Virus record (IMG/VR): IMGVR_UViG_3300020465_000114
Span: 1-21,000 of that record
Source: a virus
Direction: 5' to 3' (one strand)
DNA: 21,000 nt
A model generated the notes under the pieces. The model saw only the letters and a program-made list of their open reading frames with translations. It had not been told where the DNA came from and searched no databases. The translations under genes and the position numbers were made by a program. Numbering within the stretch: position 1 is the stretch's first letter; each line of letters opens with the position of its first letter. Below, in pieces: positions 2,369 to 20,944 of this stretch.

Positions 2369-4429
2369 ATGCCTTTAGTAAATTTTAGCAACGTCGATTT
2401 TGACCAGATAAAGACCTCAATCAAAGATTATCTTAGATCTAATTCTAATTTCACTGATTATGACTTTGAGGGATCTAATTTATCTGCAATTATTGATACG
2501 CTTGCTTATAACACCTATATTACCTCATATAATGCCAATATGGTAACTAATGAGGTGTTCATTGATTCCGCCACTCTCAGGGAGAATGTGGTATCACTGG
2601 CAAGGAATATAGGTTATGTACCTAGATCCAGAAAGGCAGCAAAAGCATTAGTATCTTTTACTGTTGATTGTACAAATCAAACATCAGTGACGCTGACACT
2701 GAAAGCAGGTATTGTTTTAACAACAGCAAATAAGTTTGGTGGAAGAAATTATACATTTGCTATTCCTGAAGACATTACTGTACCTGTTTTATCTACTGGA
2801 TTTGCTAATTTTGATAATGTTGAGGTATATGAAGGAACTTACATCAATCAGACCTTTACAGTTAGTTCTAGAAACCCAAATCAGAAATATATCCTTCCAA
2901 ATGTAGGAATTGACTCAGATTTGATTAGAGTAATAGTAAAAGATAATGAATTATCATCAGTAAGAGACAAATATCAAAAATTTGATAGTTTATTTAATGT
3001 TAATAAGGATTCTATGGTCTATTTCCTACAAGAAATAGAAAATGAGAGATATGAGGTTATATTTGGTGACGGTGTATTTGGTAAAAAGGTAGAAGAACCT
3101 AATTTTATAGAAGTTAGTTATATTACCTCTAGTGGTTCTGATGCAAATGGTCTACAAAACTTTACTTTCTCTGGAAGACTTATAGATAATGGTGAAACGT
3201 CCATTACTACTGGAATTTCTTTAGTTTATACTGATCAATCCTCTTCAGGAGGTAGTTCTATAGAAAGTATTGAGTCTGTTAAGAAATATGCTCCACAAAT
3301 TTACTCTTCACAGAACCGTGCAGTCACAGCATCTGATTTTGAGGGGTTAGTTCCTAGAATTTATGCTGAAGCAGAGTCAGTCTCTGCATATGGTGGTGAA
3401 GAATTAACACCCCCTAGATATGGTGAAGTGTTTATTAGTGTTAAACCTTATAATGGGGTTTATTTGTCCAGTGCTGTTAAAGATAATATTAAAAATGAGT
3501 TAAGAAAGTACTCTTGTGCTGGAATTATCACTAAAATTCTAGATTTGAAGTATTTGTATGTAGAAACTGATAGTACTGTATATTATGATACAAGTAAAGT
3601 TGCTTCTCCTAACACAGTTAAGAATACTATAGTAGATAATATCACAAATTATGGAAATTCTACCCAATTAAATAAATTTGGAGCTAGATTTAAGTATAGT
3701 AAGTACATTGGAATGATTGATAACAGTCAATCTGCTATTACTTCTAATATCACTACTGTGCATATGAGAAGGGATATGGAACCTGTGTTAAATACTTATA
3801 CAGAATATGAAATTTGTTATGGAAATAGGTTTCATGTAAAGAGTGAGGACGGTTATAACATTAAATCTTCAGGATTTAAGGTTAGTGGTATTAGTGATAT
3901 GGTTTATTTTGGTGATCTTCCAGATAAAAACCTAAAAACAGGAAAAGTTTTCTTATTTAAGTTAAATTCTCCTACACAACCAGTTGTTGTAAAGAAATCA
4001 GTTGGAATTATTGACTATGTTAAGGGTGAAATTAAGTTAAATCCAATAAATTTCATCTCCACTAAGCTTACTAGAGGAGTTACTGGTCAAGAAGTACCAT
4101 TAATTGAAATATCTATGTGTCCTTATTCTAATGATGTTATTGGATTGCAAGATCTTTACTTACAATTAGATGTTGGTAATACAACAGTTACTATGGTTCC
4201 TGATGAAATTACCTCTGGTACTAATACTTCAGGTAGTAGCTATAAAGTAACTTCTAGTTATGCTAATGGACATTTAGTTAGAGGCACTCCTTCATTATCT
4301 ACATCATCTAATGGCACAAATAATGCCACAACAAGTACAAGAACTGTTACATCATCTAACGGTACTAGTACAGCAGGTACAACTAGCACACCTTCCACTA
4401 CTTCTACTGGTAATGGATCTGGATATTAA
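2369..4429 (+). CDS. gp6: Baseplate wedge subunit gp6
   Basis: gp6 forms the ring that joins neighbouring wedges around the T4-type baseplate. The protein has 686 aa, close to T4 gp6 (660). The N-terminal region VDFDQIKTSIKDYLRSN, then LAYNTYITSYNANMV and LRENVVSLARNIGYVPR (about residues 8-89), is typical of the family. A Baseplate_J-like core follows, with FGDGVFGKKV (about residue 231) and GEVFISVKPYNG (about residue 352). Unlike T4 gp6, it ends in a Ser/Thr/Gly/Asn-rich, low-complexity tail from about residue 612 to 686, with the near-repeated units TSSNGTN and TSSNGTS. It starts 4 bases after gp25, with AGGTAG as a weak ribosome site, and the giant gene follows after 6 bases. It should be co-transcribed with gp25. 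Confidence 0.93.
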   Translation: MPLVNFSNVDFDQIKTSIKDYLRSNSNFTDYDFEGSNLSAIIDTLAYNTYITSYNANMVTNEVFIDSATLRENVVSLARNIGYVPRSRKAAKALVSFTVDCTNQTSVTLTLKAGIVLTTANKFGGRNYTFAIPEDITVPVLSTGFANFDNVEVYEGTYINQTFTVSSRNPNQKYILPNVGIDSDLIRVIVKDNELSSVRDKYQKFDSLFNVNKDSMVYFLQEIENERYEVIFGDGVFGKKVEEPNFIEVSYITSSGSDANGLQNFTFSGRLIDNGETSITTGISLVYTDQSSSGGSSIESIESVKKYAPQIYSSQNRAVTASDFEGLVPRIYAEAESVSAYGGEELTPPRYGEVFISVKPYNGVYLSSAVKDNIKNELRKYSCAGIITKILDLKYLYVETDSTVYYDTSKVASPNTVKNTIVDNITNYGNSTQLNKFGARFKYSKYIGMIDNSQSAITSNITTVHMRRDMEPVLNTYTEYEICYGNRFHVKSEDGYNIKSSGFKVSGISDMVYFGDLPDKNLKTGKVFLFKLNSPTQPVVVKKSVGIIDYVKGEIKLNPINFISTKLTRGVTGQEVPLIEISMCPYSNDVIGLQDLYLQLDVGNTTVTMVPDEITSGTNTSGSSYKVTSSYANGHLVRGTPSLSTSSNGTNNATTSTRTVTSSNGTSTAGTTSTPSTTSTGNGSGY

Positions 4430-4435
4430 TAAAAA

Positions 4436-5350
4436 ATGACAATAGATACCAGAATTAAATTTCAGGACATAGTTGAAAATCAACTTCCTCGTTTTGTGAG
4501 GGAAGATTTTCCACTTTTATCCGATTTTTTAAAGAGTTTTTACGTTTCTCAAGAAATTCCTGGTGGACCTTATGATTTAATACAAAATTTAGACCGTTAT
4601 GTGAAAGTTGATGAGTTATTTGCTCTTAAAGACTCAACAATTCTTAACGGTGACTTGAATATGAGTGCTGTTAGCATCAAAGCTGGTGCTGAAGGAAACT
4701 TTACTGTTGGTTTTCCTGAAAATAATGGTCTTATTAAGATAGATGATGAAATAATTACATACGATTATAAAACAGATAGCACTTTTGAGGGGTGTAAAAG
4801 GGGTTTCAGTGGCATTACTTCCTACATTGGGACAAATACACCAGATAAACTAGTATTTTCTCCTTCTGTTGCTGGAATTCACACTTCTGGGTCTCCAATT
4901 CAGAATTTAAACATAGTTTTTCTTCAAGAATTCTTCAAAAAAGTCAAAACACAGTTTGCTCCAGGGTTTACTGATAGAGCTTTTGCTCCAGAAATTGATC
5001 AAAGGAACTTTATTTTTAATTCGGAGAGTTTTTATACCTCAAAAGGTACAGATAATGCCTTTGAAATTCTTTTTAAAGCACTTTATTCTGCAAATGTAGA
5101 AGTTATACATCCAGATCGTTACTTATTCAGACCATCTAATGCAGATTATAAGATAACAAAGGACTTTATTGTTGAAACTATTAGTGGTGATCCTAAAGAA
5201 TTAACTAATTTAACAATAACTCAGAAAGCTACAGGTGCAAGAGGAACAGTTACTAGAGTAGTTCCTATTCTTTATGATAAAGGACAATATCATGAAATCA
5301 GTATAGACTCTGGATTTTCTAGAGATATTAGTGTAAAGGGTACTATTTTT
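4436..5350 (+). other. First half of the split gp7 core
   Basis: These bases encode about residues 1-305. The match to T4 gp7 runs through the short helices (LPRFVREDFPLLSDFL), the FYTSKGTDNAF helix and the ATGARGTVTRV strand pair. In T4 gp7 the next conserved block follows within a few dozen residues; here it comes more than 2,100 residues later. Confidence 0.7.
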
Positions 5351-8300
5351 AACGAATTTGATGTAAATCCTAAAACAAAGATTACAAATGAGATTAGTAT
5401 TGGTACTACTACATTAGATGTTGACTCAACTCTTGGTTTTCCTGATACAGGAAAGCTTATTATGTTGGATGTTGATAATCAACCAGTATCTTTAGCATAT
5501 ACTGGAAAGACAGTTAACCAATTTTTTGATATTACAGGCATTAATAATACATTTCCAGCAGGAACTGATGCTAGAATAGATGATTATTCTTATGCTTATG
5601 TTGGTGTTAATACTACAGAACAAATTCAAGTAAGAATTGGTGCTGCTCTTCAAGATATTGATTTTAAAGAACCTAATTTCTCTTATGAACCAGGTGATGT
5701 TATAAGACTTCAATCACTTGGAGTACAATCTCAGTTAGAAAAAGCAGTTAATTTTATTGGAAATATAAAAACTAAGTGGGAATTAAAAAATATTACACTT
5801 CTTGATGAAGATCAAAGAACATATCAATTTACAACTTGGGACACTCAATATTTAAGAGCAGGACATACCTTCATAATGAAGAGTCGTGATCCTATTCCTG
5901 TAGTGGTTACTGGTTCAGTTACTCAAATTACTTCTCCATATACATTTGAAGTAATCTTATCTAATAATATTTCATTAGTAAAAATTTGGGATCTTGAAAA
6001 TCAAATATTAAAAGGTGATTCTTCAAAATATCCTTATATTAACAATTATATTACTAATGTTCTTAATACTTATGTAAGGACTAGAACTGGTGATGTTTTA
6101 GTTGCTACTAACTCTATTCCATCATATGAGAATAAGGAAATTAATCCTTATGATAGAAAGATATCTTATACTGGTCGTTTAGTCAGTCAGGAAGAAATTC
6201 CTTTGACAACTACTACTGATCATGGATTTTATACTGGAGATACTCTTTATTATAAGGCTGGAGTTACTTTAGTTGTAAGTACCACTTCTGATGGATTAAC
6301 ATTTGAAACTCCAATTGATAGTAGATTTAATAATATAGATGATGGAGTTTATTATGTAAGAAGAGTAGATGCTAATAGAATTAAAATGTCCCGTAGTAAG
6401 GGAAATTTATATAATGACATCTATGTTGAATTTACAGGAGATGTAGAAGATAATTTATTCATATATTATGAATTTAAGGATAAAATATTTGATGCTCAAA
6501 AAACAGTAAGAGCTCTTCTTCCACCAGATAAAAAGAGTGGAAGTTATGTTACGCCTCCTGGATATACAGGTATTTTAAATAATGGCGTAGAGATAATGAA
6601 CTATAAATCTCAAAATAGTACAGTCTACTATGGAGATGTTAGATCATTTGAAGTTAAGAGAGGTGGTTACAATTATGATGTTGTAAATCCTCCTGTTCTC
6701 GTAATTAATGATGATGTTGGAGTTGGAGCAACTGGTACTGTTGCTACTCAAGGTGAATTTGAAAGAATTGAAATACTTAATACTGGATATGACTATGTTG
6801 ATACTCCTGTTGTCTTAATTAGTGGTGGTAATGCTGAAGAGGATGCAGAAGCAGAAGTAAGAACTATTGCAGTTCCTCATGAATTACCTTTTAATGCTGG
6901 TGAAGAATCTAAAGGAAGTAGAGGAGTTGATTTAACTAACAATACTATTGGATTTACTACTTTCCATAAATTTAGAGATGCTGAAGAGATTATCTATGAA
7001 TCTAGGGATTTAGATCGTGTGGTTGGTTTAGTTACACAATCATCTTACTATGTTTCTGTAGTTGATAATTATATTATTAAATTACATAATAAAGAGCAAG
7101 ATGCTATTGAAGGAATTAATGTTGTTGATCTAACTGATTATGGTCAAGGTAGACAATTTATTAAAACGGCTCAATTAAAGAGAATAGTTTCTAGTGTAGA
7201 AATAACTAAGAAAGGAAAAGGATATCAAAATAAGAAAAGAACAATTAGAACTACTGGGATAAGCACTGCTGCTAATACTTTTGCTATTCCTTCACATGGA
7301 TATTTGAATAAAGAAATAGTTCAATATACTGCACCAGAAACTGGAGATTCCGTTACTGGATTATCTTCTAATGATGATTATTATGTTGTTAAGAAGAGTG
7401 AAGATGAATTTGGTCTAAGATTAGTAGGTGTTGGATCTACAGCAAAGGATTATTATTGGAATAATGTTATTCCTGTTGATATAACAAAAGGTGGTGGTGG
7501 ATCATTTAACTATCAACCTATTGTAGCTAGGGTAGAAGGGTCTATAGGGGTCTCTACAAGAGCAGGAGGGCAAGACTTCCAAGCAGTGCTTCAACCTGTT
7601 GTAAGGGGTTTAGTGACCTCTGTAGACCTTACTCAGAATGGAGTAGGGTATGGTGCTTCTGAGATTGTTAATTTCAATAGACAACCTGTAATTACTTTTG
7701 AGAATGGTGAGTTAGCACAAGCAAAACCAGTTATTAATAATGGACAAATAACTTCCATTATGATACAAAATTCTGGTAGAAATTATCATGCACCTCCTGA
7801 TGTTACTATTAAGAGTGCTGATGGTGATTTTGCTCAATTAACTCCTATTATTGATACTGGAAAATTAGTAGAAATTAAAGTTATTAAGGGTGGAGCAGGA
7901 TATGTAAAAGATGAAACTGATATCATTATCAAATCACCTGGAGCAACTGCTCAAGTAGAAGCTACTATTCGTACATGGCAAGTCAACTTATTCCAAAGAA
8001 ACTTTAATAATATTGAAAGTGATGATGGTGTATTGGATGAGAACCTTTCTCATGACAAATTACAATATTCTCATATCTATGTTCCTAGAGCATTAAGAGA
8101 ATCTACTTATGCTATATCTGGGGAAGCAATAGATAATACTCTTTATGGAACACCAGATCTAGTTAAACTGGATGGATCTGAAGTTGCTAGTTCTGAACAT
8201 TCGCCCATATTAGGATGGGCTTATGATGGGCATCCAATATATGGTCCTTATGCATTAACTAATACTGATGGATCTGGATCTATTGGTGAAATGACGTCTG

Positions 8301-11300
8301 GATATGAATTAAAGGTTGGAGATGTTTTAGTAACTGATGCTGTAGATGCAACTAATAGACCTCCTGTTTCTGTATATCCTGCTGGATTCTTTGTAGAAGA
8401 TTTTGTATATACTGGAAATGGAGATTTAGATGAGCATAATGGTAGATTTGCTATAACTCCAGATTATCCAAAAGGAACATATGCTTATCATGCTACTATA
8501 AATGCTCAAAATGATTCTACTGGACCTTTTGAGAATTATAGATCTCCTGCTTTCCCTTATTTCATAGGAAAGAGTTTTAAATCTAAACCAAATCCATTTA
8601 ATTTTAGTATTGAGTCAAATCAAGATGAGTATGATATAGAAACAGGTGAATGGTTAAGAAATACAAGAGATTACCATACTAACTCTGTTAGAAGTGGATA
8701 TGATTATATTTTCAATTCTAATGATGTAAAAGAGCAAACATTAGAAATAACTGAAACCTCTTTGGGACATATTAATAATATAGGAATCACCAGTGGTGGA
8801 ACAAAATATAAGATGGGTGATGAAGTTGAATTTGATAATGCTGGTACTAATGGTAGAAATGCTAATGCAGAGGTTGCTAGAGTTGCTGGTAAAGTAATTG
8901 ATACTGTTAGTCTTGCTACTACTAGTTTTGATAATGTTGAATTTGTTCCTTCTAGAACTTCAACTACATTTGTAGGAGTTACCACTGCTCCTCATAATTT
9001 ATTAAACAGAGATATAGTTAGAATTTCTGGACTTTCTACAAACGTTGGTGGTCTTTCTGCTAGTTATTCTGTAGGGGTTACTAGTGAAGCTTTATCTTTG
9101 ACTGTTGGAATGGCAGCAACAACTAATAGTGGACAAGTAGAATGGGTTAATGTTGGTGGTGCTTTAGGTAATTCATCTTTAAGAGATAATGATATTCTTA
9201 TAGTAGATCAAGAAAAGGTTAAAGTATTAGACATTAATGTAGATGCTGGACAAATTCTTGTTAGAAGAGCACAGAGTGGTACTACAGCAGGGATTCATAG
9301 TAGTAGAGCAATCTTATTTGAAGATCCTAGAACCTTTAGTTTCCAAGTAGCAGGAATATCAACTACTAAGAAATTTAGACTTAATAGACAACAATATTTC
9401 TATCCTGCAGATGTAGTTGGAATGGGAACTGCCAGAGGAACTGCTAGATCTACTGGTTATGGAACAACTATAAGCTTTAGTAGAACTATAGGGTTGGGAT
9501 TGACACAAGTTTGGGTTCCTTCTCAATCTCTCTGGTTTGCTGATCATGGATATCAATTAAATGATGAAGTTGTTTATTCTGCTAATGGTGGTACACCTAT
9601 TAAAGCTTATAGTGGAGTAACTGCAACTCCTTATAGAAATCTTGATACTTATGATAATCTATATGCTGTTCCTCTTGATTCTAATACTATTGGTTTGTCT
9701 ACAGGTAGAGTTGGTCTTGGAAGTGATTCTAATGGTTATTATGTGGGTGTTAATAGTTCACTTGTACCATCTACACTTTACTTCCCTACTCAAACTTTAA
9801 CTGGAGTAGGAAATACTCATAGTCTACTTACTAGACTTACTGATACAATTAGTGGAAAAGTTACTCAAAATGTAGTTACTGTTTCTACAGCTACAACTCA
9901 TATCTTAGAAAAAGATGATACTGTCTTTGTATCTGTAAAACCAATAGGTGTTACTACAGTTACTGTAAAATATAATGATTATAATAGAAGAATAGTTTTT
10001 GACCCTCAAGATTTTGTTGCTGGTGATGTAGATCTCTCTTTAAATACCATTTCTGTAACTGAAGGTGTTTTCAATTTAGGAGATAAAGTAATTCATACTG
10101 CTTCAACTCCATCTGGTGGATTAGTAGATGAGAAAATGTATTATGTTATTTTCTATGATAAGACTAATATTCGTTTGGTTGAAGATAGAATTCAGGTACA
10201 ATCAACAAATCCAAAATTTGTAGATATTACTAGTGCTTCTGCTGGAACTTTATCTAAAGTCAATCCTTCATTATTGGCTAGAAAGAATCAACAGATTAAA
10301 TTTGACTTATCAGATTCTTCTCTATCATTTATTGATAATGGAGAGACATATTCTGCTTTTGACTTAAATTTATATATTAACAGTGAATATACTGATGAAT
10401 TCGTTACTACAGAGAAAAATGATGCTTATGAAGTCCTTAAGACTGGAAGAATTGGTATAGATGCTACAGCAAATCTTCTTTTAACTTTAACTGATGATAT
10501 TCCTAAAAATCTTTTCTATAAGTTTAGTCAGGATAATATTTCTATCATCCCTGATGTAAAGAAACAGATAGTTATTGATACTTTAGTTTCTAATTTTAAT
10601 CAGATTAATATAAGAGCAACATTCTATGATGGTAATTGGAGTGTTAGTGGGGTAGGAGCTACTACTTTCCAATATAACATCCCAAATACTCCAGATGTAA
10701 CTTCATACACTAAAGCTAATTCTAAACCAGTATATGAAACTACTTCTAAAACAGCAGAAGGAGCTATACTTAAATTTAAGGTGAAGAGTGGTGGAGCAAT
10801 GTACAAGATTGCTCCTAGAGTAAGTGGAGTAGGTGCTGGTACTACTGTTAGGTCTGGAATTGGAAGTGGAGCAATTCTTACTGCAGAAACCTCCTCTATA
10901 GGTCAAATTACTAAGACTCGTCTTAATAGTATTGGTTTTGATTATCCTTCAGATAAGACTTTAAAAGTTATTCCTAATCTTCCTGATATTGTAGAAGTAG
11001 AAAGATTGAATACTTTGGGTTCTATTGGTATAACATCTCAAGGAAGGAATTATTTGGTATCACCCGATTTGGTTATTCAAGATGGATATACTAAACAAGT
11101 GTTAAATGATGTTGATCTTGAATATGCTTTAGGTGATACAGAAGTTAGAATAGTAAAAAATACAGAAGGAATCTATGATGTACCTCCAATAATTTTACCA
11201 GTTGGTAACTCTAATGGTGTAGTTATTAGAGATCTTTTGTATAGTAATACTGGTGGTGGTACTTCTACAGGTAAACCTAATACTGTTAGACTTTATATTG

Positions 11301-14300
11301 ATGATGTTTTCCAAGAAGCAGAAGATTTCAATAAAGGTGGATGGTTCCCTGGTGAGAAGTTCATGTTGGAGAATGTGAGCGTTGGTCTAGGAAGTACAGG
11401 TACAGGTTATAATTCAAAAGAATATAATTACCATTTATGGGAAGTAACTGCTGCTAGTGGTCAAATTGGTGGTGCTAATGCATTCATTGAATTTACTTTC
11501 CCTGATGGATTTATTGGTGTTGGAAGAACACCAGGTAAGATGGTTCCTGGTAGGTCATTTGCAAGAGCAATCTTAAAAGAACACTTCCCAGTATATGAAC
11601 CAGTAGTATTAAAACAAAGTGAATTCTTTACTGGAGAAACAGTAGAAGATGAAGTAGGTGCTCAAGGTATTATTCAAAGGTGGGTTCCTGAAAGTAATAC
11701 ACTGACTATTTCTGCTCAACAGGAATTTGATGTAGGGTCTAAAATTAAGGGATTAAGTTCTAGAGTACAAGCATATATTAAAAAGAATGTTAGTTTTGCA
11801 GCAGAAATTGCAACTGGTGCTGGTGCAACAGTAAATCATGGATTCCAATCTGATTCTGGTTTCTTAAACAATAGTTTCCAAAGACTTCCAGATAATGGAT
11901 ATTATCAAAGATTTGCTTATGCTTTAAGATCTCAAGTTCCTATTGATAAATGGGGTGATGATGTAAAAGCATTAAGTCATGTTGCTGGATTTGATAGATG
12001 GTCTGATTTAGAAATTGAAAGTAAAGATCCAGATGCTGTTATTACTAGAACAGAACCTGCTAACTTTGAATTAGTTGCTGAACAGCAATGTTATGGTGAT
12101 GTACAGTCATATCCTGATTTTGATGATGTAAGTGAAATTACAGTTGATGTAGCAGGTCAAATAATCTCTAAAGAAGTTTTATTTGCTAATAGACCTATTA
12201 CTGATTATTATCAGTCTATTGGAAATAGAGCACTTGATATAGATGATTTTAGTGCTACATTTAATGATAGAGAAAGACCTACTAAATTCTCCACTGTTGG
12301 TGAATTTACAGATAATGATGTATTCAATAAAATCTTTACTTTAGTAAAAGATCAAACTTATTCTGATGAAAGACAATTCTCTATTGTTTCTCTTCTTCAG
12401 CATGATAATGTTGCATATATTAATGAGTATGCAACTGTAGAAACATATCCAGAATTAGGAACTTTTGATTATGCTCCTAAGAAAGAAGGTTGGGATTTAA
12501 CTTTTGTTCCTAATAAAAATGAATATAATTTATATGATATTTCTAGTGTTTCTATAAGTGTTAAAGATAATATTGTTGGTGTAGCAAGTACTGCTTTAGG
12601 TGATTCATGTTACTTGGATGATTCTCAAACTAATATTGGTGCTAATGTAAGAAAAAATATTGTTGAATTTGGAGTAGATTATAGAGCTGCTCATATTATG
12701 GTTCAACTTGAAAATAATGTTCAAGAGTTTGTAGGAAGTGAATTTAACCTCATTCATGATGGTACTAAGGTAGCACTTAACCAATATGGAGATCTTACTA
12801 ATAGTCTTTCTCCTGATTCTTTAGATGTTGGGTTTGGAACCTATTATGCTACAATTGAAGGTGGTCATGTTAAATTAGATTTCCATGAAGCAGTAGGTGC
12901 TGCTGTTACAGCAAATGCTTCCTTTATTGCTTTAGAGAAATATGGTTCTGTTGGTGTTGGATCTGTAACTTTAGATATTGGTAGACTTACTTCAAACAAA
13001 CAAACTGTTGGTGTAGGGTCTACTGCTACTCCTATAGCATCTTATGGAACAGATGGTTCTGGATTCGATTTTAAAGCAACTACTGGATATTACTTTGTAT
13101 CTGTAGAGGGTGCTAATGCTGCTTCTACTGGACAGTATGAGTGTTTTGAGGTTGCTGTTTTAAACTCATCATCTAATGTAGTAACTGTTGATTATGCTAA
13201 TGTTGGTCTTAATACTACTAGTTTGGGAACTGTTGATGCTCAATTGGTAGGTGATAGTGTAGATATAACTTATAGTCCTAGAGCTGGTGCTTCTGTCCAT
13301 GTCAAGACCTTTGGTATTGAGATGCAGATTTATGATAATATTCCTTTAGCACCTAGCTTAGATTTAGACAATACAGAATGGTATAGTAAATTTGGTAGAT
13401 ATGTTGGAACTAAATTAGATCTTCAAACTGCATTTAACTTAAAGCATGATGAAAAGCAAATTTTTAGAAGAATATTTGATGGTTCTAGTGATGCTGGAAC
13501 AGGTGGTAATGGAATCAACTTAACTAATAATACTGTTGATATTCCTGATCATTACTTTGTTACAGGAGAAAAGGTTAATTATAGTTACACTGGTTCAAGT
13601 ACTGTTAATGCTGTAGGAATTAAAGCTGCTACCGTTGCTGGAGTAAGCACTACTAAACTTCCTAATGAATTATATGTTGTTAAATTCTCTAATTCTGGAT
13701 TAAGATTTGCTGAAAGTGCTGCTAAAGCTTTACAACAGGTTCCAGAAACATTTGAATTAAATTCAGTTGGTATAGGAACTTCTCATCATATTACTGCTAC
13801 TAATCAGAATTCCAAATCATTAGTAACTATTGATAACATGATTCAGTCTCCTATTGCAGGAACTGCTGTTACTACTGCTTTATCAGCAGCTATAGTATTT
13901 GGACAGAATACTCCTGTAGTTGGAATAACGTCATTTGCCGCTGCGGACTTAGTTAAAATCGACGACGAGATCTGTAAAGTATTAGACGTAGGAGTTAACG
14001 GGAATAATCTAACTTTATTGAGGGGTCAATTAGGAACTCCTGTGGAAGCTCATAGTAATGGATCTGTTATTACTAAGTTAAGTGGAAATTATAATATTGC
14101 ATTAAATACCCTTCATTTTGCTCAAGCACCAAAAGGAAATACTCCTTTAAGTACTACTTCTGACCCAGATGAAACTTCTTGGGTTGGTCTTGTTACTCAT
14201 TCTACTTTCCACGGTAGAATCTTTACTAGAACTGCACCTCCAAGGTCTACCAAAGAAACTTATACTACTAATGCAGTTTTTAATGATATTTCAGATCAAT

Positions 14301-17134
14301 TTACTGGAATTCAAAGTGCTTTCTCCCTTACAACTGGATATGGTAGCAGTGAAACTAATGCTTTAGGATTCTCTACTTATAATGGAGTACTCTTGATCAA
14401 TGATATGTTCCAAGAACCTGCAAGTACTGAGCAAGGAAATTATAGTTTTGGAGAAGGAAGTGGTATTACTACTGTTACATTTACTGGTGAAGAAACATCT
14501 CTTGCAGCATATCGTAGACCAACTGATACTGTTTTAGGTGAGAATGCAAATAGGACTAATTATCCTAATGGTGGTAAGATTCTTTCTGTTGGATCTACTG
14601 GAGGATTGGGTTATCAACCTTTAGTTGCTGCTGGTGGTACTGCTATTGTTTCTGGTGTTGGAACTATTACTTCTATTAGTATAGGTAATACTGGTTCTGG
14701 ATATAGATCTGGAATCCAGACTACAGTTAATGTGGGAGTTCAGACTTATGGTGTAGGTATAGCAAGTTACGTTTCTATTGGTACTGCTGCTATTAGTGGT
14801 GGTCATATAGTAAGTATTGCTGTTACTAATCCTGGAATTGGATATACTTATTATCCTATTGATTCTACAACATTCATGACTGCTGCTGGTGCTGCAGGAA
14901 CTACAATTATAGGGGTTGCTGATACTAGTAGAATCACTACAGGGTCTATAATTTCTATTGCTCAAACTACTAATTCATCAACTACCAGTAAAGTAACTCT
15001 AATTGCTAATGTTTCTGTAGTTAGTGTTGGTCAAAGTCAGTTTACTATTGGTACAGGAGACACTATTAGTTCTGCAATAGGTATTGGAACTACTACTGCT
15101 GCACCAGTGGTTACTATTAAGAGTTTTGATCCACCTGAAGTAGTAATTGATTCACCACTAAATTACACTAACATTCCTTTGATATATGATCCTAATTCTA
15201 CTACTGGAGCAGGACAAAGTGCATCTGTAGATTTTGTTGTTGGAATGGGTGGTAGTGTAGTTGACTTTAAAGTTAAGAGAGAAGGATTTGGATATGGTAA
15301 TGGTGAAATATTAACTGTTGCTACTGGTGGAGCAACTGGAATTCCTACTACAAGTTCTACCAGTCATATAGATTTTGAACTTACAGTGCAAAAGATTCAT
15401 ACTGATGAATTCTCTGGATGGCATTTTGGACAACTTGAAGCATTAGATAATTTTAGTACTGATTTGGATGGATTTAGAACAGTCTTCCAGATGAAGGTAA
15501 GTAATAAACCTGTTTCACTTAAAACTGCTCCTGGATGGAATGTAAGTCCAGTTCATTCTTTATTAGTATTTGTTAATGGTCTTCTTCAAGAACCAGGATA
15601 CGCATATAACTTGGGTAGTGGTGGAAGTTCTATTGTATTCTCAACTGCTCCTAATGCTGATGATTATATACATGTTCTTTTCTATAAAGGAACTCCTGGA
15701 ATAGATGTAGCACTATTAAATGTTGCTAAAACTATTAAGAAGGGAGATCAAATAGATATTCAGAATAATCCAGAGAAATTATTTAATGGATATCCTCAAG
15801 GACCAGGATTAAATCAAGAACCAAGAATTATTGTAGGAATTACATCATTAAGTTCTGATAGTGTAACCACTACTCCATATAATGGAATAGGAATAAGCAC
15901 TGATATAAGCTTATTAAGACCTTCTAATTGGAGAAAACAAACTAGTGATTTAATTGTTAATAATAGACCTGTTGGAAAAGATAGGGTTGAATTAGAGGCA
16001 GATATATTCCCTACTGCTTTTGCTATACAACCTATAGGAGCAGGTACTACGTATGTTTATGTTGATACAGTTAGACCTTTCTTTAATCAATATAATGAAC
16101 AGTCTGCTAGTAGAGATACCTTACAAGACTTTATTAATATAGCTGAACAAGATGATAAATTACCAGGAATTGCAACTGCTATAGTTTCTGATACTGGAAC
16201 TGTTAGTTCTATTGATTTAACTAATATTGGAGTTGGATATACAGCAGTTCCTACACTTACTTTCTCTCCTCCTCCAGAAGGTGGTAGTTTTGTTACAGCA
16301 ACTGCTACTTGTACTGTAGGTGCTGCTGGAACCATAACATCAGTAACAGTTACTAATGCTGGAACTGGATATACTACTACAAATCCACCTGTTCTAGAAA
16401 TTGCTGCTCCTCAAGCAGTAAAAGAAGTTAAAGTGGATGTAGATGCTTATGAAGGTGATTTTGGAACTATAGTTGGATTTGGTACAACTACTACAAGTGG
16501 AAAACCTCAAATTATCTTTGATTTCTATATTCCAGATGGTTCTCCTTTGAGAGATGTTGCTTCTGGTGGAACTGGACCTGTTTCTGCTGCTACTACAGTT
16601 AGTGGTATTACTACTGGAGATTTCTTCACTGCAAATAATACTAATTACACATTTGGAGATGGAACTCTAGAAACTAGAAAGACAGATAGTACTATTAAAG
16701 TTGGTGCTACTACATCTTTCTTAGATTGTGTATATCAAGTTGCTAGTGCTGAAACTGTAACTGTAACCAATGCTTCAATTGGTGCTACTGGTATTAACGG
16801 ACCATTTACTGGTCTTACTACAGATGTAAGAAGAGTCTTCTGTAATATTGCTGGTATTGGTACAGAGAACTTCTCTTCTACATACTTTAAATTTGATCAA
16901 AATAAAACTGGTGTAGGAACAGTTACATTTGATACTCAAAATATTACCACATACTCTGGTACTATTACTGTTTCTCCTAACTTAGGTCACTTTAGTTGGG
17001 GTAAGATTACAGTACAAAGAAAAGAAGGTAACACATTTACCTATTATGGTGATAATGGGATTAGTGGTTTATCTACTTCAACAGTGATTACTAGATATAA
17101 TCCACTGAAAATGAAAGAGTATGTTATTTCATAA
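4436..17134 (+). CDS. gp7: Giant gp7-like baseplate wedge protein, 4,232 aa
   Basis: This uninterrupted gene fills the T4 gene 7 position between gp6 and gp8. Residues 1 to about 305 resemble the C-terminal third of T4 gp7: PRFVREDFPLLSDFLKSFY; FYTSKGTDNAFEILFKALY (about 198-216; T4 has FYSTKGIEASYKFLFKVLY); and ITQKATGARGTVTRV. The T4 region that follows directly reappears only at about 2489-2522 (YYQRFAYALRSQVPIDKW, then HVAGFDRW; T4 has SYYVMKIKSNLPSSRWKSDV). Between them lie GxGY repeats, HGFxTGDxVxY-type repeats and a YHYH-like domain (about 1255-1385). The remaining 1,700 residues hold further repeats, an IDDE to LLRGQLGT module (about 3165-3205) and NGLLQEP-type modules. I see no signal peptide or membrane segment. 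The large N-terminal part of T4 gp7 is not recognisable. There is no Shine-Dalgarno sequence. The gp7 relationship is from recalled T4 sequence and position; the functions of the insertions are unknown. Confidence 0.85.
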   Translation: MTIDTRIKFQDIVENQLPRFVREDFPLLSDFLKSFYVSQEIPGGPYDLIQNLDRYVKVDELFALKDSTILNGDLNMSAVSIKAGAEGNFTVGFPENNGLIKIDDEIITYDYKTDSTFEGCKRGFSGITSYIGTNTPDKLVFSPSVAGIHTSGSPIQNLNIVFLQEFFKKVKTQFAPGFTDRAFAPEIDQRNFIFNSESFYTSKGTDNAFEILFKALYSANVEVIHPDRYLFRPSNADYKITKDFIVETISGDPKELTNLTITQKATGARGTVTRVVPILYDKGQYHEISIDSGFSRDISVKGTIFNEFDVNPKTKITNEISIGTTTLDVDSTLGFPDTGKLIMLDVDNQPVSLAYTGKTVNQFFDITGINNTFPAGTDARIDDYSYAYVGVNTTEQIQVRIGAALQDIDFKEPNFSYEPGDVIRLQSLGVQSQLEKAVNFIGNIKTKWELKNITLLDEDQRTYQFTTWDTQYLRAGHTFIMKSRDPIPVVVTGSVTQITSPYTFEVILSNNISLVKIWDLENQILKGDSSKYPYINNYITNVLNTYVRTRTGDVLVATNSIPSYENKEINPYDRKISYTGRLVSQEEIPLTTTTDHGFYTGDTLYYKAGVTLVVSTTSDGLTFETPIDSRFNNIDDGVYYVRRVDANRIKMSRSKGNLYNDIYVEFTGDVEDNLFIYYEFKDKIFDAQKTVRALLPPDKKSGSYVTPPGYTGILNNGVEIMNYKSQNSTVYYGDVRSFEVKRGGYNYDVVNPPVLVINDDVGVGATGTVATQGEFERIEILNTGYDYVDTPVVLISGGNAEEDAEAEVRTIAVPHELPFNAGEESKGSRGVDLTNNTIGFTTFHKFRDAEEIIYESRDLDRVVGLVTQSSYYVSVVDNYIIKLHNKEQDAIEGINVVDLTDYGQGRQFIKTAQLKRIVSSVEITKKGKGYQNKKRTIRTTGISTAANTFAIPSHGYLNKEIVQYTAPETGDSVTGLSSNDDYYVVKKSEDEFGLRLVGVGSTAKDYYWNNVIPVDITKGGGGSFNYQPIVARVEGSIGVSTRAGGQDFQAVLQPVVRGLVTSVDLTQNGVGYGASEIVNFNRQPVITFENGELAQAKPVINNGQITSIMIQNSGRNYHAPPDVTIKSADGDFAQLTPIIDTGKLVEIKVIKGGAGYVKDETDIIIKSPGATAQVEATIRTWQVNLFQRNFNNIESDDGVLDENLSHDKLQYSHIYVPRALRESTYAISGEAIDNTLYGTPDLVKLDGSEVASSEHSPILGWAYDGHPIYGPYALTNTDGSGSIGEMTSGYELKVGDVLVTDAVDATNRPPVSVYPAGFFVEDFVYTGNGDLDEHNGRFAITPDYPKGTYAYHATINAQNDSTGPFENYRSPAFPYFIGKSFKSKPNPFNFSIESNQDEYDIETGEWLRNTRDYHTNSVRSGYDYIFNSNDVKEQTLEITETSLGHINNIGITSGGTKYKMGDEVEFDNAGTNGRNANAEVARVAGKVIDTVSLATTSFDNVEFVPSRTSTTFVGVTTAPHNLLNRDIVRISGLSTNVGGLSASYSVGVTSEALSLTVGMAATTNSGQVEWVNVGGALGNSSLRDNDILIVDQEKVKVLDINVDAGQILVRRAQSGTTAGIHSSRAILFEDPRTFSFQVAGISTTKKFRLNRQQYFYPADVVGMGTARGTARSTGYGTTISFSRTIGLGLTQVWVPSQSLWFADHGYQLNDEVVYSANGGTPIKAYSGVTATPYRNLDTYDNLYAVPLDSNTIGLSTGRVGLGSDSNGYYVGVNSSLVPSTLYFPTQTLTGVGNTHSLLTRLTDTISGKVTQNVVTVSTATTHILEKDDTVFVSVKPIGVTTVTVKYNDYNRRIVFDPQDFVAGDVDLSLNTISVTEGVFNLGDKVIHTASTPSGGLVDEKMYYVIFYDKTNIRLVEDRIQVQSTNPKFVDITSASAGTLSKVNPSLLARKNQQIKFDLSDSSLSFIDNGETYSAFDLNLYINSEYTDEFVTTEKNDAYEVLKTGRIGIDATANLLLTLTDDIPKNLFYKFSQDNISIIPDVKKQIVIDTLVSNFNQINIRATFYDGNWSVSGVGATTFQYNIPNTPDVTSYTKANSKPVYETTSKTAEGAILKFKVKSGGAMYKIAPRVSGVGAGTTVRSGIGSGAILTAETSSIGQITKTRLNSIGFDYPSDKTLKVIPNLPDIVEVERLNTLGSIGITSQGRNYLVSPDLVIQDGYTKQVLNDVDLEYALGDTEVRIVKNTEGIYDVPPIILPVGNSNGVVIRDLLYSNTGGGTSTGKPNTVRLYIDDVFQEAEDFNKGGWFPGEKFMLENVSVGLGSTGTGYNSKEYNYHLWEVTAASGQIGGANAFIEFTFPDGFIGVGRTPGKMVPGRSFARAILKEHFPVYEPVVLKQSEFFTGETVEDEVGAQGIIQRWVPESNTLTISAQQEFDVGSKIKGLSSRVQAYIKKNVSFAAEIATGAGATVNHGFQSDSGFLNNSFQRLPDNGYYQRFAYALRSQVPIDKWGDDVKALSHVAGFDRWSDLEIESKDPDAVITRTEPANFELVAEQQCYGDVQSYPDFDDVSEITVDVAGQIISKEVLFANRPITDYYQSIGNRALDIDDFSATFNDRERPTKFSTVGEFTDNDVFNKIFTLVKDQTYSDERQFSIVSLLQHDNVAYINEYATVETYPELGTFDYAPKKEGWDLTFVPNKNEYNLYDISSVSISVKDNIVGVASTALGDSCYLDDSQTNIGANVRKNIVEFGVDYRAAHIMVQLENNVQEFVGSEFNLIHDGTKVALNQYGDLTNSLSPDSLDVGFGTYYATIEGGHVKLDFHEAVGAAVTANASFIALEKYGSVGVGSVTLDIGRLTSNKQTVGVGSTATPIASYGTDGSGFDFKATTGYYFVSVEGANAASTGQYECFEVAVLNSSSNVVTVDYANVGLNTTSLGTVDAQLVGDSVDITYSPRAGASVHVKTFGIEMQIYDNIPLAPSLDLDNTEWYSKFGRYVGTKLDLQTAFNLKHDEKQIFRRIFDGSSDAGTGGNGINLTNNTVDIPDHYFVTGEKVNYSYTGSSTVNAVGIKAATVAGVSTTKLPNELYVVKFSNSGLRFAESAAKALQQVPETFELNSVGIGTSHHITATNQNSKSLVTIDNMIQSPIAGTAVTTALSAAIVFGQNTPVVGITSFAAADLVKIDDEICKVLDVGVNGNNLTLLRGQLGTPVEAHSNGSVITKLSGNYNIALNTLHFAQAPKGNTPLSTTSDPDETSWVGLVTHSTFHGRIFTRTAPPRSTKETYTTNAVFNDISDQFTGIQSAFSLTTGYGSSETNALGFSTYNGVLLINDMFQEPASTEQGNYSFGEGSGITTVTFTGEETSLAAYRRPTDTVLGENANRTNYPNGGKILSVGSTGGLGYQPLVAAGGTAIVSGVGTITSISIGNTGSGYRSGIQTTVNVGVQTYGVGIASYVSIGTAAISGGHIVSIAVTNPGIGYTYYPIDSTTFMTAAGAAGTTIIGVADTSRITTGSIISIAQTTNSSTTSKVTLIANVSVVSVGQSQFTIGTGDTISSAIGIGTTTAAPVVTIKSFDPPEVVIDSPLNYTNIPLIYDPNSTTGAGQSASVDFVVGMGGSVVDFKVKREGFGYGNGEILTVATGGATGIPTTSSTSHIDFELTVQKIHTDEFSGWHFGQLEALDNFSTDLDGFRTVFQMKVSNKPVSLKTAPGWNVSPVHSLLVFVNGLLQEPGYAYNLGSGGSSIVFSTAPNADDYIHVLFYKGTPGIDVALLNVAKTIKKGDQIDIQNNPEKLFNGYPQGPGLNQEPRIIVGITSLSSDSVTTTPYNGIGISTDISLLRPSNWRKQTSDLIVNNRPVGKDRVELEADIFPTAFAIQPIGAGTTYVYVDTVRPFFNQYNEQSASRDTLQDFINIAEQDDKLPGIATAIVSDTGTVSSIDLTNIGVGYTAVPTLTFSPPPEGGSFVTATATCTVGAAGTITSVTVTNAGTGYTTTNPPVLEIAAPQAVKEVKVDVDAYEGDFGTIVGFGTTTTSGKPQIIFDFYIPDGSPLRDVASGGTGPVSAATTVSGITTGDFFTANNTNYTFGDGTLETRKTDSTIKVGATTSFLDCVYQVASAETVTVTNASIGATGINGPFTGLTTDVRRVFCNIAGIGTENFSSTYFKFDQNKTGVGTVTFDTQNITTYSGTITVSPNLGHFSWGKITVQRKEGNTFTYYGDNGISGLSTSTVITRYNPLKMKEYVIS
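8198..8590 (+). other. YHYH-like domain inside the giant protein
   Basis: About residues 1255-1385 read HSPILGWAYDGHPIYGPYAL, then DLDEHNGRFAITPDYPKGT, TYAYHATI and FPYFIGKSF. This order (GWxxDGxPIYGPY, LDExNGR, TYAYHATI, FPYxxG) is that of the YHYH protein family (Pfam YHYH), found in many secreted bacterial proteins and marine phage proteins. Its biochemical role is not established. The His residues (H1266, H1334 and H1352) are conspicuous. Confidence 0.7.
11600..12010 (+). other. Second half of the split gp7 core
   Basis: About residues 2390-2525 contain VVLKQSEFFTGETVEDEVGA, then YYQRFAYALRSQVPIDKW (from about 2489) and VKALSHVAGFDRW. The last two match the T4 gp7 segment of Tyr-Tyr, Ser-x-Leu-Pro, Arg-Trp and His-Pro-x-Gly-Phe that precedes its C-terminal end. 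Locally the codons are of the same AT-rich type as the flanking repeats. Confidence 0.65.
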
Positions 17135-17168: not shown

Positions 17169-19340
17169 ATGGCGAAACAAGGAATTAGTACTGGATCAAG
17201 TCCGAATGACGGAACAGGTGATAGCCTCTTAGCTGGTGCCGTTAAAGTTAATGAAAACTTTGATGAGGTTTATGGTAAACTGGGTGATGGGACAAGTTTA
17301 TTTGTAGGAATTGTTAGTTCTATTGCTGTTGATGGTGCTCTGAGTATATCAACCTCCTTTGGTGCTCCTACTATTACAGGAACTGCTAATACAGCAGTAA
17401 TTAACTCAAGACAGATTTTTAGTGCAGGTATAGTTACTTTTGCTACTGATGCTAAGATAAGTGGAATTAATACTTTTTCAAGTGCTGGATATGATGTAGC
17501 AGGTATTATAACTGCTCAAAATGTAATTTTATATGATACTGCAAAGATTGCTGGTATTACTACTATTAATTCTTTTGGAGTTAATGTTGGTGGTGCAGTA
17601 ACAGCAAATTCTTTAGCAGTTAGAGATACTGGAGATGGTTCATATGTTGGTCTAAACACAGTCAGTATTGATAATACAGGTATTGCTGCAACTGCAATCA
17701 GTATTACTGATACAGCAACTTTAGTCACTATACAAAATAGTGGTACTGCTAATCTAGCAACAGCAAATATTAATAGTGGAATAATTACATCTGCTGTAAT
17801 TGGTGCTGGAATCACAATGAATTCCAGTGGTATTGATTTTGCTTCTTCTACTGGTATTGCTACAATATCTCTATTAAAAGGAAATGTAGAAGGTAATGTA
17901 ACTGGTAATGTAACTGGTACTGCTTCTAATGCTACTCTTGCTGCTAATGCTCAAGGATTGCAGGGTACTCCTAATATTGTTGTTGCAAGTATTTCATGTA
18001 GTGGTAGTGCTTTAAATGCTAACTTTACCACTGGTATTGCTACTGCATCTGCATTTAAAGTTGGTACTAATCAAGTTATTAGTAGTGCAAGACAATTACA
18101 AAATATTGCTTCTTTAGATACTACAACCAGAGATACAATTGAGGCTGCTATAGAAGCAGGTCCAAATGACTTTACAGATATAAATGTTTCTGGTTTAGGT
18201 ACTGTTGGAACTCTTTATGTTCCTGGAACTGTTAGAGGACTGAATATAAGTGGTGTTACAACTGGATTAACTGTATCTGGTGTTACTACTGTTGGTATTG
18301 TAACTGGTGCTACATCACTTCAAGTTACTGATGTTTATTCTAACTTCTACTTTGGTGATATAACTAATGTAAGTGGTAAACCAACATTATCTAAAGCTAT
18401 AATTGGTACTGGTGTTACCATAGATCAAGGTAATATTGATGCTGGATCTTATGTTGGAATTATTACTGCAAAAGAATTTCATGGTGATGGATCAAATTTA
18501 ACTAATGTAACCTCATCTGCTACAGCAATAACATTAGCTGATGAGTCAACTGATACCTCATGTTTCCCTGTATTTGCTACTGGAGCAACAGGTAGTTTAG
18601 GACCTAAAACAGGTACAAACCTTACATTTAATTCAGCATCAGGTGCATTAACTGCTACATCTTTTGTTGGTGCTGTAACTGGTAATGTAACTGGTAATGC
18701 ATCTGGTTCATCTGGATCTTGTACTGGTAATGCTGCAACTGCAACACTTGCTACTACTGCCCAGGCATTAACTGCAGCAACTATTAATCTTAATGGTAAT
18801 ACCCTTGGGTTAAATCTAACAGGTATTCAGACAGGATTAAATGTTACTGGAGTTGGAACTATTACCACTTTTGGTAGTACAACAGCAACTTTAACTACTG
18901 CTAATATAACTACTGCTAATGTTGGATCTGCTGTAACAAGTAGTTCTACTGGTATTGTAGTTGGTGCTGGTAAATCTTACACAGGTGACTCATCTAGGGT
19001 TGTTAGTGGAAGATGGATACTGGGTGCTAATGGTACTAGTGATTATACCTTTACTGGTGTTGGACTCACTGTTACTGAAAATGATCCAGATTTATACCTT
19101 GCAAGAGGTAATACCTATGAATTTGTAAATGCATCTGGTGGTCATCCATTTAGGATTCAGAGCACTACTAATGGATCTACTGGTGCTGCTTATGGTTCTG
19201 GTGTTATAAACAATGATGGTGGTAATGGTTCAACTATTACCTTTGAAGTACCATTTAATGCTCCTGATACACTCTATTATCAGTGTACAGCACATACTGG
19301 AATGGGTGGAACTATCTTTGTCTACCCAGCTCTTAGATAA
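17169..19340 (+). CDS. Fibre-like virion protein with C-terminal cupredoxin domain, 723 aa
   Basis: This is probably a tail or baseplate fibre-like structural protein. The N-terminus (SPNDGTGDSLLAGAVKVNENFDEVY) matches a module I recall at the start of many cyanophage structural proteins. The middle is Gly/Thr/Ser/Ala-rich beta sequence with FHGDGSNLTNV (about residue 437) and ADESTDTSCFPVF (about 457). Two related GNVTGN stretches each run into ATLA...AQ (about residues 240-265 and 500-530). The C-terminal 100 residues or so form a plastocyanin-like domain: DLYLARGNTYEFVN, GGHPFRI (H659) and YYQCTAHTGMGG (C706, H709, M712). These are the four ligands of a type-1 copper site, in amicyanin-like CxxHxxM spacing. 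It sits between gp7 and gp8, where T4 has no gene, and has its own late promoter but no clear Shine-Dalgarno sequence. Whether copper is bound is not known. Confidence 0.8.
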   Translation: MAKQGISTGSSPNDGTGDSLLAGAVKVNENFDEVYGKLGDGTSLFVGIVSSIAVDGALSISTSFGAPTITGTANTAVINSRQIFSAGIVTFATDAKISGINTFSSAGYDVAGIITAQNVILYDTAKIAGITTINSFGVNVGGAVTANSLAVRDTGDGSYVGLNTVSIDNTGIAATAISITDTATLVTIQNSGTANLATANINSGIITSAVIGAGITMNSSGIDFASSTGIATISLLKGNVEGNVTGNVTGTASNATLAANAQGLQGTPNIVVASISCSGSALNANFTTGIATASAFKVGTNQVISSARQLQNIASLDTTTRDTIEAAIEAGPNDFTDINVSGLGTVGTLYVPGTVRGLNISGVTTGLTVSGVTTVGIVTGATSLQVTDVYSNFYFGDITNVSGKPTLSKAIIGTGVTIDQGNIDAGSYVGIITAKEFHGDGSNLTNVTSSATAITLADESTDTSCFPVFATGATGSLGPKTGTNLTFNSASGALTATSFVGAVTGNVTGNASGSSGSCTGNAATATLATTAQALTAATINLNGNTLGLNLTGIQTGLNVTGVGTITTFGSTTATLTTANITTANVGSAVTSSSTGIVVGAGKSYTGDSSRVVSGRWILGANGTSDYTFTGVGLTVTENDPDLYLARGNTYEFVNASGGHPFRIQSTTNGSTGAAYGSGVINNDGGNGSTITFEVPFNAPDTLYYQCTAHTGMGGTIFVYPALR
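17901..18696 (+). repeat. Identical 19-base direct repeat in the fibre gene
   Basis: ACTGGTAATGTAACTGGTA occurs at 17901-17919 and at 18678-18696, in the same reading frame, encoding TGNVTG. In both places the downstream protein reads NAT or AAT, then ATLA and AQ, so the 19 bases belong to a longer, diverged duplication of a GNVTGN module. Such repeats in fibre genes can recombine and change fibre length. Confidence 0.6.
19044..19337 (+). other. Cupredoxin domain with complete type-1 copper ligands
   Basis: About residues 626-723 of the fibre-like protein show the order strand, GGHPF, an acidic and Gly-rich loop, ITFEVPFNAPDTLYYQC, then HTGMGG. The His659, Cys706, His709 and Met712 set corresponds to the His-Cys-His-Met ligands of plastocyanin-type proteins. 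The Cys-to-Met spacing of six residues is that of amicyanin. Confidence 0.72.
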
Positions 19341-19372: not shown

Positions 19373-20944
19373 ATGGCTGCGATAATTACTGATCAACTTC
19401 GTATTGTGAATGCTACTAATTTTGTGGCTGGGGTTCAATCCAGTGCAAATTCGTATTATTGTTTTATCGGAGTACCTAATCCTGCAGATTATGTTTCTAC
19501 TTGGGATTCAGATCCTCCTGCACCTAAAGATAGCTTTAGTCAACAGGATGATTATTATGATACCATGTTGGCAGTTAAAAGAATTAACTCAGCCGATATA
19601 AGTCAAGTTGTTAGAAAACTTAAGTGGCAATCTGGTGTTACTTATGATATGTGGAGAAATGATATCACTAGAGATAATCCATCTCAACCTTCTGGTGCTT
19701 TTGATATCTATTCAGCAAATTATTATGTAATTAATGATGATTATAGAGTATATGAGTGTCTGTTTAATAATGCTAGTCCTGAAAATAATAACCAAGGTGG
19801 TCCATCATTAGATCAACCTACTTTTACAGATTTAGAACCTAGAGCTGCTGGAAGTAGTGGTGATGGATATATTTGGAAATATCTCTTTAGTATTAGACCA
19901 AGCCAAGCAATTAAGTTTGATTCTACAGATTATATTCCAGTTCCTGATGATTGGTATACTAGTGCTAGTTATGTCCCTATGAGGGAAAATGCAGATGCTA
20001 GTGGTCAAATTAAAATTTGCACAGTAACAAATCGTGGTGTTGGTTTAGGAACTGCTAATATCACTTATAACCAAGTTCCTATTCTTGGTGATGGTGAAGG
20101 TGCTAAGGCAACTATTGTTATTAACAATGATTCTAAAGTAGAATCTATTACTGTTGCTGATGGTGGTGCTGGTTATACCTATGCTAATGTTGATTTACCA
20201 GCAGGTGGAGTTCCAACTGGTACTACAACTCCAACATTTAATGTTATTATTCCTCCTCCAGGTGGATATGGAAAAGATATTTACTTAGAGTTGGGAGCAT
20301 TAAATGCTTTAGCATATGCTAGATTTGAAAATGATTCTGAAAACCCTGATTTTATTACAGGAAACCAATTTGCTAGAATAGGAGTTCTTAAGAACCCTCA
20401 AGCATATGGTTCTGAGCAAATGTTAATTTTAGATAAAGCAAGTTCTGCTTATGCTCTTAGATTAACTGGTACTGGTTACAGTTCTGCTGTTTTCACTCCT
20501 GACTCCTTTATTACTCAAACTGTTGGTGTTGGTTCTACTGCTGTAGGAAGAGTTATATCATATGATCAAATAACTGGGGTATTGAAGTATTGGCAAGATA
20601 GAACTACTGCTGGATTTACTTCTACTGGTTTGGCTGACCCTACTCCAATTTATGGTTTTAGGTCAAATAGATTCAATCATATGATTACTGCTCCAGGAGA
20701 GACTGGAGGTGGTAGTTATATAATTAATGGTGGAAGTGTATCTTTGGGAATTAATACTGATTTCCAAGGTGTTTCGACAGTAATAAATAATAGAACATAT
20801 TATCTTGGGCAAAATTTCAGCAGCGGTGTAGCTCAACCAGAGATTAAAAAATATTCTGGTGAAGTAGTATATGTTGATAACAGACCATCTATTACTAGAT
20901 CAAAGTCCCAAAAAGAAGACGTAAAAATTATCTTGCAATTCTAA
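19373..20944 (+). CDS. gp8: Baseplate wedge subunit gp8, enlarged (523 aa)
   Basis: gp8 is a wedge protein that in T4 binds gp7 at the baseplate periphery. Both ends match T4 gp8 as I recall it. YRVYECLFNN (about residue 124) and GDGYIWKYLFSI (about 163) correspond to T4 YRCLDV and GDGYVWEYLFEI. GNQFARIGVLKNP corresponds to KGFRQISIITNP. The end YSGEVVYVDNRPSITRS, then EDVKIILQF, matches T4 HSGEMIYMENRP and INILFTF. T4 gp8 has 334 aa; the extra 190 or so lie in two blocks. One (about 222-300) contains a GxGY repeat (ESITVADGGAGYTYANVDL) like those in the giant neighbour. The other (about 350-490) lies between the NP and SGE motifs. The gene has its own late promoter. The next gene starts 6 bases after its stop. 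Confidence 0.88.
   Translation: MAAIITDQLRIVNATNFVAGVQSSANSYYCFIGVPNPADYVSTWDSDPPAPKDSFSQQDDYYDTMLAVKRINSADISQVVRKLKWQSGVTYDMWRNDITRDNPSQPSGAFDIYSANYYVINDDYRVYECLFNNASPENNNQGGPSLDQPTFTDLEPRAAGSSGDGYIWKYLFSIRPSQAIKFDSTDYIPVPDDWYTSASYVPMRENADASGQIKICTVTNRGVGLGTANITYNQVPILGDGEGAKATIVINNDSKVESITVADGGAGYTYANVDLPAGGVPTGTTTPTFNVIIPPPGGYGKDIYLELGALNALAYARFENDSENPDFITGNQFARIGVLKNPQAYGSEQMLILDKASSAYALRLTGTGYSSAVFTPDSFITQTVGVGSTAVGRVISYDQITGVLKYWQDRTTAGFTSTGLADPTPIYGFRSNRFNHMITAPGETGGGSYIINGGSVSLGINTDFQGVSTVINNRTYYLGQNFSSGVAQPEIKKYSGEVVYVDNRPSITRSKSQKEDVKIILQF
20781..20789 (+). promoter_or_regulatory. Possible internal late promoter within gp8
   Basis: The same nine bases, TAATAAATA, occur inside gp8, 161 bases before the next gene's ATG at 20951. 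It has the same core as the three promoters at gene starts, but it is further from its gene and it encodes protein. It could give the downstream gene extra late transcription, or be chance. Confidence 0.3.

Follow-up and report, generated by a model that had tools for sequence, protein, structure and literature searches.

The locus described here raises the question whether the C-terminal end of a phage structural protein is a copper protein, and what such a domain would be doing there. The window, by which we mean the whole stretch of DNA that was analysed, covers positions 1 to 21,000 of the IMG/VR record IMGVR_UViG_3300020465_000114. A sequence-only reading of this stretch had described a cupredoxin with all four type-1 copper ligands on a virion fibre protein. 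The protein in question has 723 amino acids and lies in a cluster of baseplate genes:

1963-2364, gp25
2369-4429, gp6
4436-17134, giant wedge protein of 4232 amino acids
17169..19340, plus strand, T4 gp10/gp9-like baseplate wedge / tail-fibre connector protein of 723 amino acids, which carries the cupredoxin domain (assigned by PHROG_677, the T4 gp10 N-terminus and the gene order)
19373-20944, gp8

The resulting gene order, gp25 - gp6 - giant wedge protein - 723-aa protein - gp8, is identical to that of the baseplate genes in P-TIM68. In P-SSM4 and S-ShM2 (Kyanoviridae) the same order is interrupted by one or two additional genes. The C-terminal half of the 723-aa protein (residues 294-720) matches the PHROG_677 family, named 'baseplate wedge tail fiber protein connector', with an E-value of 2.4e-46. 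Furthermore, residues 3-45 match T4 gp10 (PDB: 2fl8, 5hx2) with an E-value of 1.1e-6, and no match to T4 gp10 was found beyond residue 46. The N-terminal sequence, MAKQGISTGSSPNDGTGDS, corresponds to a baseplate anchor of the gp10 type and has no signal peptide. Judged by these homologies, this protein of a marine cyanomyovirus is a baseplate wedge (pin) protein of the gp10/gp9-like kind, which is a better name than fibre. Its place in the virion would follow from the same homologies. Virion proteomics papers on cyanophages report baseplate proteins in the particles, and in the accessible parts of these papers the 723-aa protein is not recognisable by name.

The baseplate genes are immediately preceded by a CP12 gene (1504-1767, Pfam: PF02672, E 5.4e-8). 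CP12 is a Calvin-cycle regulator typical of cyanophages, and its gene in the window indicates a cyanobacterial host. The giant wedge protein contains a YHYH domain (Pfam: PF14240, E 2e-26) at residues ~1200-1357. One of the BFVD matches obtained in the fold search with the cupredoxin domain was named YHYH domain-containing phage protein, so both domains can occur together.

The AlphaFold model of the full-length 723-aa protein is unreliable (pLDDT 38.8), and the domain was modelled with AF2 together with 33 relatives. The following parts and residues were distinguished:

17175..17303, plus strand, gp10-type N-terminal baseplate anchor (residues 3-45), from the match to T4 gp10 and the NDGTGDSL motif common to related loci
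17304..18968, plus strand, repetitive, fast-evolving and beta-rich shaft (about residues 46-600), with 18-23% identity to relatives
19011..19337, plus strand, cupredoxin domain (residues 615-723, first strand at 616), from AF2, Foldseek and profile matches
19143..19145, plus strand, His659, predicted first copper ligand, in the motif HPFRI and in the loop before model strand 47-50, from the profile alignment and AF2
19284..19286, plus strand, Cys706, predicted thiolate ligand, the final residue of model strand 87-92, from AF2 and conservation
19293..19295, plus strand, His709, predicted second His ligand, from AF2 and conservation
19302..19304, plus strand, Met712, predicted axial ligand, just before model strand 99-105, from AF2 and conservation

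The domain model has eight strands and a mean pLDDT of 94.7. Searching the PDB with this model using Foldseek gave 16 matches at E<=0.001, all of which are copper proteins, with a best E-value of 8.6e-5. Rusticyanin, Cu nitrite reductase, AcoP and multicopper oxidases (CueO, McoA and others) are among the matches, and plastocyanin and amicyanin rank just below the E<=0.001 set. The TM-scores to solved cupredoxins are modest at 0.45-0.6, with an rmsd of 4-8 Å. A profile of the family searched against the PDB matched plastocyanin with an E-value of 3.8e-5 and amicyanin with 1.5e-4. The Pfam model Copper-bind (Pfam: PF00127) reaches E 0.001 on the single sequence, with 19.9 bits and therefore below its curated cut-off of 21.2. 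It matches seven of 34 relatives at E<=0.01 (best 9.6e-5), and the NCBIfam amicyanin model reaches an E-value of 1.3e-6 in the best family member. On the grounds of profiles and predicted structure, residues ~615-723 are to be regarded as a genuine cupredoxin. The domain had earlier been placed at 19044-19337, corresponding to residues 626-723; it is present there, and its real start lies about 10 residues earlier.

The four ligand residues His659, Cys706, His709 and Met712 are found where they had been claimed, with codons starting at 19143, 19284, 19293 and 19302 of the open reading frame 17169-19340. These two His, one Cys and one Met, all at predicted ligand positions, are the only residues of their kinds within 626-723, and the complete protein of 723 amino acids contains no more than three His, four Cys and three Met. 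In the AF2 model, His709 and Met712 are positioned in the loop preceding the last strand, and the placement of all four residues on strands and loops indicates the arrangement of a cupredoxin. Both this placement and the fold matches are consistent with a His659 that is close to the CxxHxxM loop. In the single-sequence alignment, His659 is found two residues from the usual ligand position. That it is out of register was rejected, since in the profile alignment His659 falls on the ligand His of plastocyanin and since it is the most conserved of all 103 columns of the family alignment.

In this alignment of 225 distinct copies the four ligands rank 1, 3, 5 and 7 in conservation among the 103 columns, and the structural residues F652, G647, Y703 and Y704 are conserved to a similar degree. 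A search pattern such as YYQC..H..M is biased towards intact sites, and the search was therefore repeated with the N-terminal half as a seed that is free of ligands. The loss of Cys706 or Met712 in close homologues had been named beforehand as a finding that would refute the site, and with this ligand-free seed all four ligands were found in 67 of 67 distinct complete homologues; one further sequence is truncated at the end of its contig. Of the 217 long copies, 198 carry the ligand set HCHM, three divergent copies have Gln at the position of Met712 (HCHQ) and 16 have other sets. Parsimony on the tree places these 16 non-intact copies in about five loss events, in every one of which Cys and the second His are gone together. 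No copy was found among the 217 in which one of His659, Cys706 and His709 is lost and the other two are kept. The first His is also missing in three single copies (YSAM, NSNM and GNRM), and an exception to this all-or-none pattern is a clade in a neighbouring 1500-aa protein which keeps HPL and has no Cys, His or Met. Moreover, Cys is rare elsewhere in intact copies, with only 4 in 19,472 non-ligand residues, and in S-SKS1 two residues are inserted between Cys and His with all four ligands retained.

Taken together, the conservation ranks, the 67 of 67 intact homologues, the joint losses, the scarcity of Cys and the S-SKS1 insertion point to a metal site and not to a relic. The related domains in neighbouring proteins that have no Cys, His and Met indicate that the fold alone does not require copper. 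From sequence and model combined we consider it very likely that the domain is a cupredoxin with a predicted type-1 copper site (2His-Cys-Met) that is intact and under selection. Sequence, fold and conservation are thus in line with the earlier proposal that a virion-type protein carries a complete set of type-1 ligands which selection has preserved.

Intact and degenerate copies can also be found side by side. In three fibres with tandem cupredoxins (L059, with a 1043-aa reading frame and the repeats at residues ~196-485, L038 and L053) a YSAM copy, in which His, Cys and His are all lost, directly adjoins intact copies. Two further proteins (L074 and L080, reading frames of 1525 and 1527 aa, domain at residues ~780-889) are near-identical, and one has the intact His/Cys/His/Met set and the other NSNM, which indicates that three ligands were lost together not long ago.

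The domain was detected by tblastn in 361 out of 50,697 phage records, mostly in phages of Synechococcus and Prochlorococcus. Counted from the match list, there are also two Pelagibacter phages, four Methylophilales phages and one Actinomycetia phage. Both Autographiviridae and T4-like phages possess the domain, several virion-type proteins per genome carry it and tandem copies occur. Its cellular relatives include small lipoproteins of Bacteroidetes (Marinifilum, Flavobacteriaceae). A tie to photosynthetic hosts, which had been suggested for the domain, is not supported, since the Pelagibacter, Methylophilales and Actinomycetia phages and the Bacteroidetes lipoproteins show that such hosts are not the common factor. 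A search of plasmids with the domain gave no match.

Two of the Bacteroidetes lipoproteins (L103, 4785-5240, and L099, 4878-5294) have lipobox-like sequences (SCGG and ACSD, respectively) and consist of hardly more than the domain. Judging from their sequences, they are likely to be stand-alone blue-copper proteins, and lipoproteins of this type are a possible cellular source of the domain. A related domain with the pattern HPL...CxNHxxMG was found at three loci of Prochlorococcus single-cell genomes (L112, L113 and L114) in large proteins with reading frames of 1056-2543 aa, which are counted among the cellular relatives and may be either cell-surface or viral proteins. Small beta-sandwich proteins of Pithovirus- and Marseillevirus-like metagenomic viruses (BFVD: A0A481Z6J5, A0A481YVH3 and others) have a similar predicted fold. 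Furthermore, a ~1840-aa protein of P-HM1 (L203, 2949-8447) and its MED4-213 relative (L197, 4554-10076) carry two cupredoxins together with an Ig V-set domain, the latter assigned as PF07686 in the note of the P-HM1 record.

In hundreds of phage records the domain is currently annotated as 'baseplate wedge tail fiber connector' or 'hypothetical protein', and the annotations listed for the matching phage records never mention copper. In the open literature we found no description of phage virions that contain a cupredoxin; a superfamily match may already be recorded in InterPro or UniProt. What appears to be new here, as read from sequence and model, is a cupredoxin employed as a baseplate module.

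The conservation along the protein bears on what this module may do. The C-terminal domain shares 67-74% identity with relatives whose shafts share 18-23%, and the N-terminal anchor shares 46-68%. Receptor tips are usually the fastest-diverging parts, and a domain so much better conserved than the shaft argues against a fast-evolving receptor-binding tip. Adsorption in this sense, as considered in the sequence-only reading, is therefore less likely. The best explanation overall, and in our view a probable one, is a predicted copper cupredoxin at the C-terminus of a baseplate protein, where it may form a rigid end-module. The gp10-type N-terminus would anchor the protein in the baseplate, the variable shaft would serve as a spacer and the cupredoxin would close the end. 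The end-module would probably be a trimer, giving 18 copies per virion if the T4 stoichiometry holds. Having no export signal, the protein would fold in the host cytosol in the absence of free copper, and the copper that we infer for the site may be acquired at or after lysis, from the cell contents or from seawater. The metal would mainly serve to lock the loops of this small beta-sandwich, which has no disulphides, and so produce a rigid and durable end-module. The contacts of this module may be with adjacent wedge or fibre proteins or with a conserved feature of the cell surface, and redox chemistry may be incidental. That the role is mainly that of a rigid and stable end-module loaded with copper after assembly is proposed tentatively, at somewhat less than even chances. 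It is favoured by the identity of the domain compared with that of the shaft, by the gp10-type N-terminus and by the tandem use in fibres, in which the domain resembles Ig domains.

Two other explanations see no copper in the virion. The domain may be an inherited cupredoxin sandwich with a purely structural function, in which the ligand residues persist for structural reasons. This is consistent with the related domains in neighbouring giant proteins, which keep the fold region without the Cys, His and Met, and with the four structural residues that are about equally conserved. However, Cys or the second His is never lost singly, the insertion in the S-SKS1 loop left the ligands in place, Cys is scarce in the rest of the domain and none of the 67 complete homologues has a broken site. 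A copper-free domain is thus very unlikely. Alternatively, the site may be real but occupied in the virion by a different metal; Zn(II) would be the best candidate, as it could be taken up in the cytosol, which offers little free copper. Zinc uptake is known for cupredoxins that are expressed in bacteria, and the 723-aa protein is made in the cytosol without a signal peptide. The conserved axial Met and the thiolate between two His fit copper best, however, and the cellular relatives are exported lipoproteins, so that we regard a zinc site as quite unlikely.

Other explanations give the copper an active part. In a redox-active module, type-1 copper would cycle between Cu(II) and Cu(I) at the host surface, either exchanging electrons with a periplasmic or outer-membrane partner of the host or sensing the redox state, which would prime or trigger the baseplate on a live cell. 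Electron transfer is the classic task of a complete type-1 site with its axial Met, and almost every copy has Met in the axial position. Yet no partner is known, no other redox genes were recognised in the 21-kb window, electron carriers are not typically used in tandem in fibres and the hosts differ widely; such a module is unlikely. Distinctly unlikely is also a ring of up to 18 working blue-copper centres per virion that is read by its redox state or copper loading at adsorption, which would make infectivity a function of copper or of the redox state at the host surface. Copper capture or mimicry would mean that the domain displays or scavenges copper, either engaging a metal-uptake receptor of the host, as the 'Trojan horse' idea proposes for iron, or holding toxic copper. 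Phage tail fibres (T4 gp37, alterophage R22Y) that bind iron at HxH sites provide a precedent (PMC11705849), and secreted Bacteroidetes lipoproteins are among the cellular relatives. Against this, the conservation of the domain is similar to that of the baseplate anchor, whereas receptors vary, phages of unrelated hosts carry it and the 723-aa protein contains no HxH motif, which makes copper capture highly improbable.

Should the predicted cupredoxin end-module bind copper, a blue-copper centre would be part of the adsorption apparatus in viruses that are among the most abundant of the sunlit ocean. Copper would then be a new virion metal, after the iron of T4-like fibres, and a possible term in marine copper speciation. 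Whether cyanophage virions contain copper and whether infection depends on it would become testable, and a domain so far without informative annotation would receive a name.

Among known systems, amicyanin and plastocyanin (Pfam: PF00127; NCBIfam: TIGR02657, TIGR02656) share the eight-stranded cupredoxin sandwich with the phage domain. The order and spacing of the ligands had been described as amicyanin-like, which is correct for the ligand loop C-x2-H-x2-M, as found in amicyanin, but not for the distance from His659 to Cys706. This distance is 47 and equals that of plastocyanin, where the first His and the Cys are residues 37 and 84; in amicyanin they are residues 53 and 92. In the phage domain the first His is followed by Pro (HP), where plastocyanin-like sites have Asn (HN) or Ser, a point that speaks against the assignment. 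Unlike amicyanin and plastocyanin, it is part of a 723-aa baseplate protein and has no known electron partner. Amicyanin is an exported, periplasmic protein with a signal peptide, which the phage protein does not have, and no gene for methylamine dehydrogenase, the electron donor of amicyanin, was recognised in the window. In multicopper oxidases the first ligand is found within HPFH(L/I)H, and the HPF at the first ligand of the phage domain resembles that of the laccase/CueO-type T1 domain. In contrast to these enzymes, the phage domain is a single domain with a short amicyanin-type ligand loop and without the motifs of the trinuclear cluster. The HxH iron sites of phage fibres are likewise metal sites of the adsorption apparatus of the virion, and differ from the predicted copper site in fold, metal and ligands. 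With T4 gp10 and the PHROG_677 'gp9' connector of Kyanoviridae, the 723-aa protein has the N-terminus, the gene order and the profile in common, whereas the cupredoxin end, which T4 does not have, is found in marine phages.
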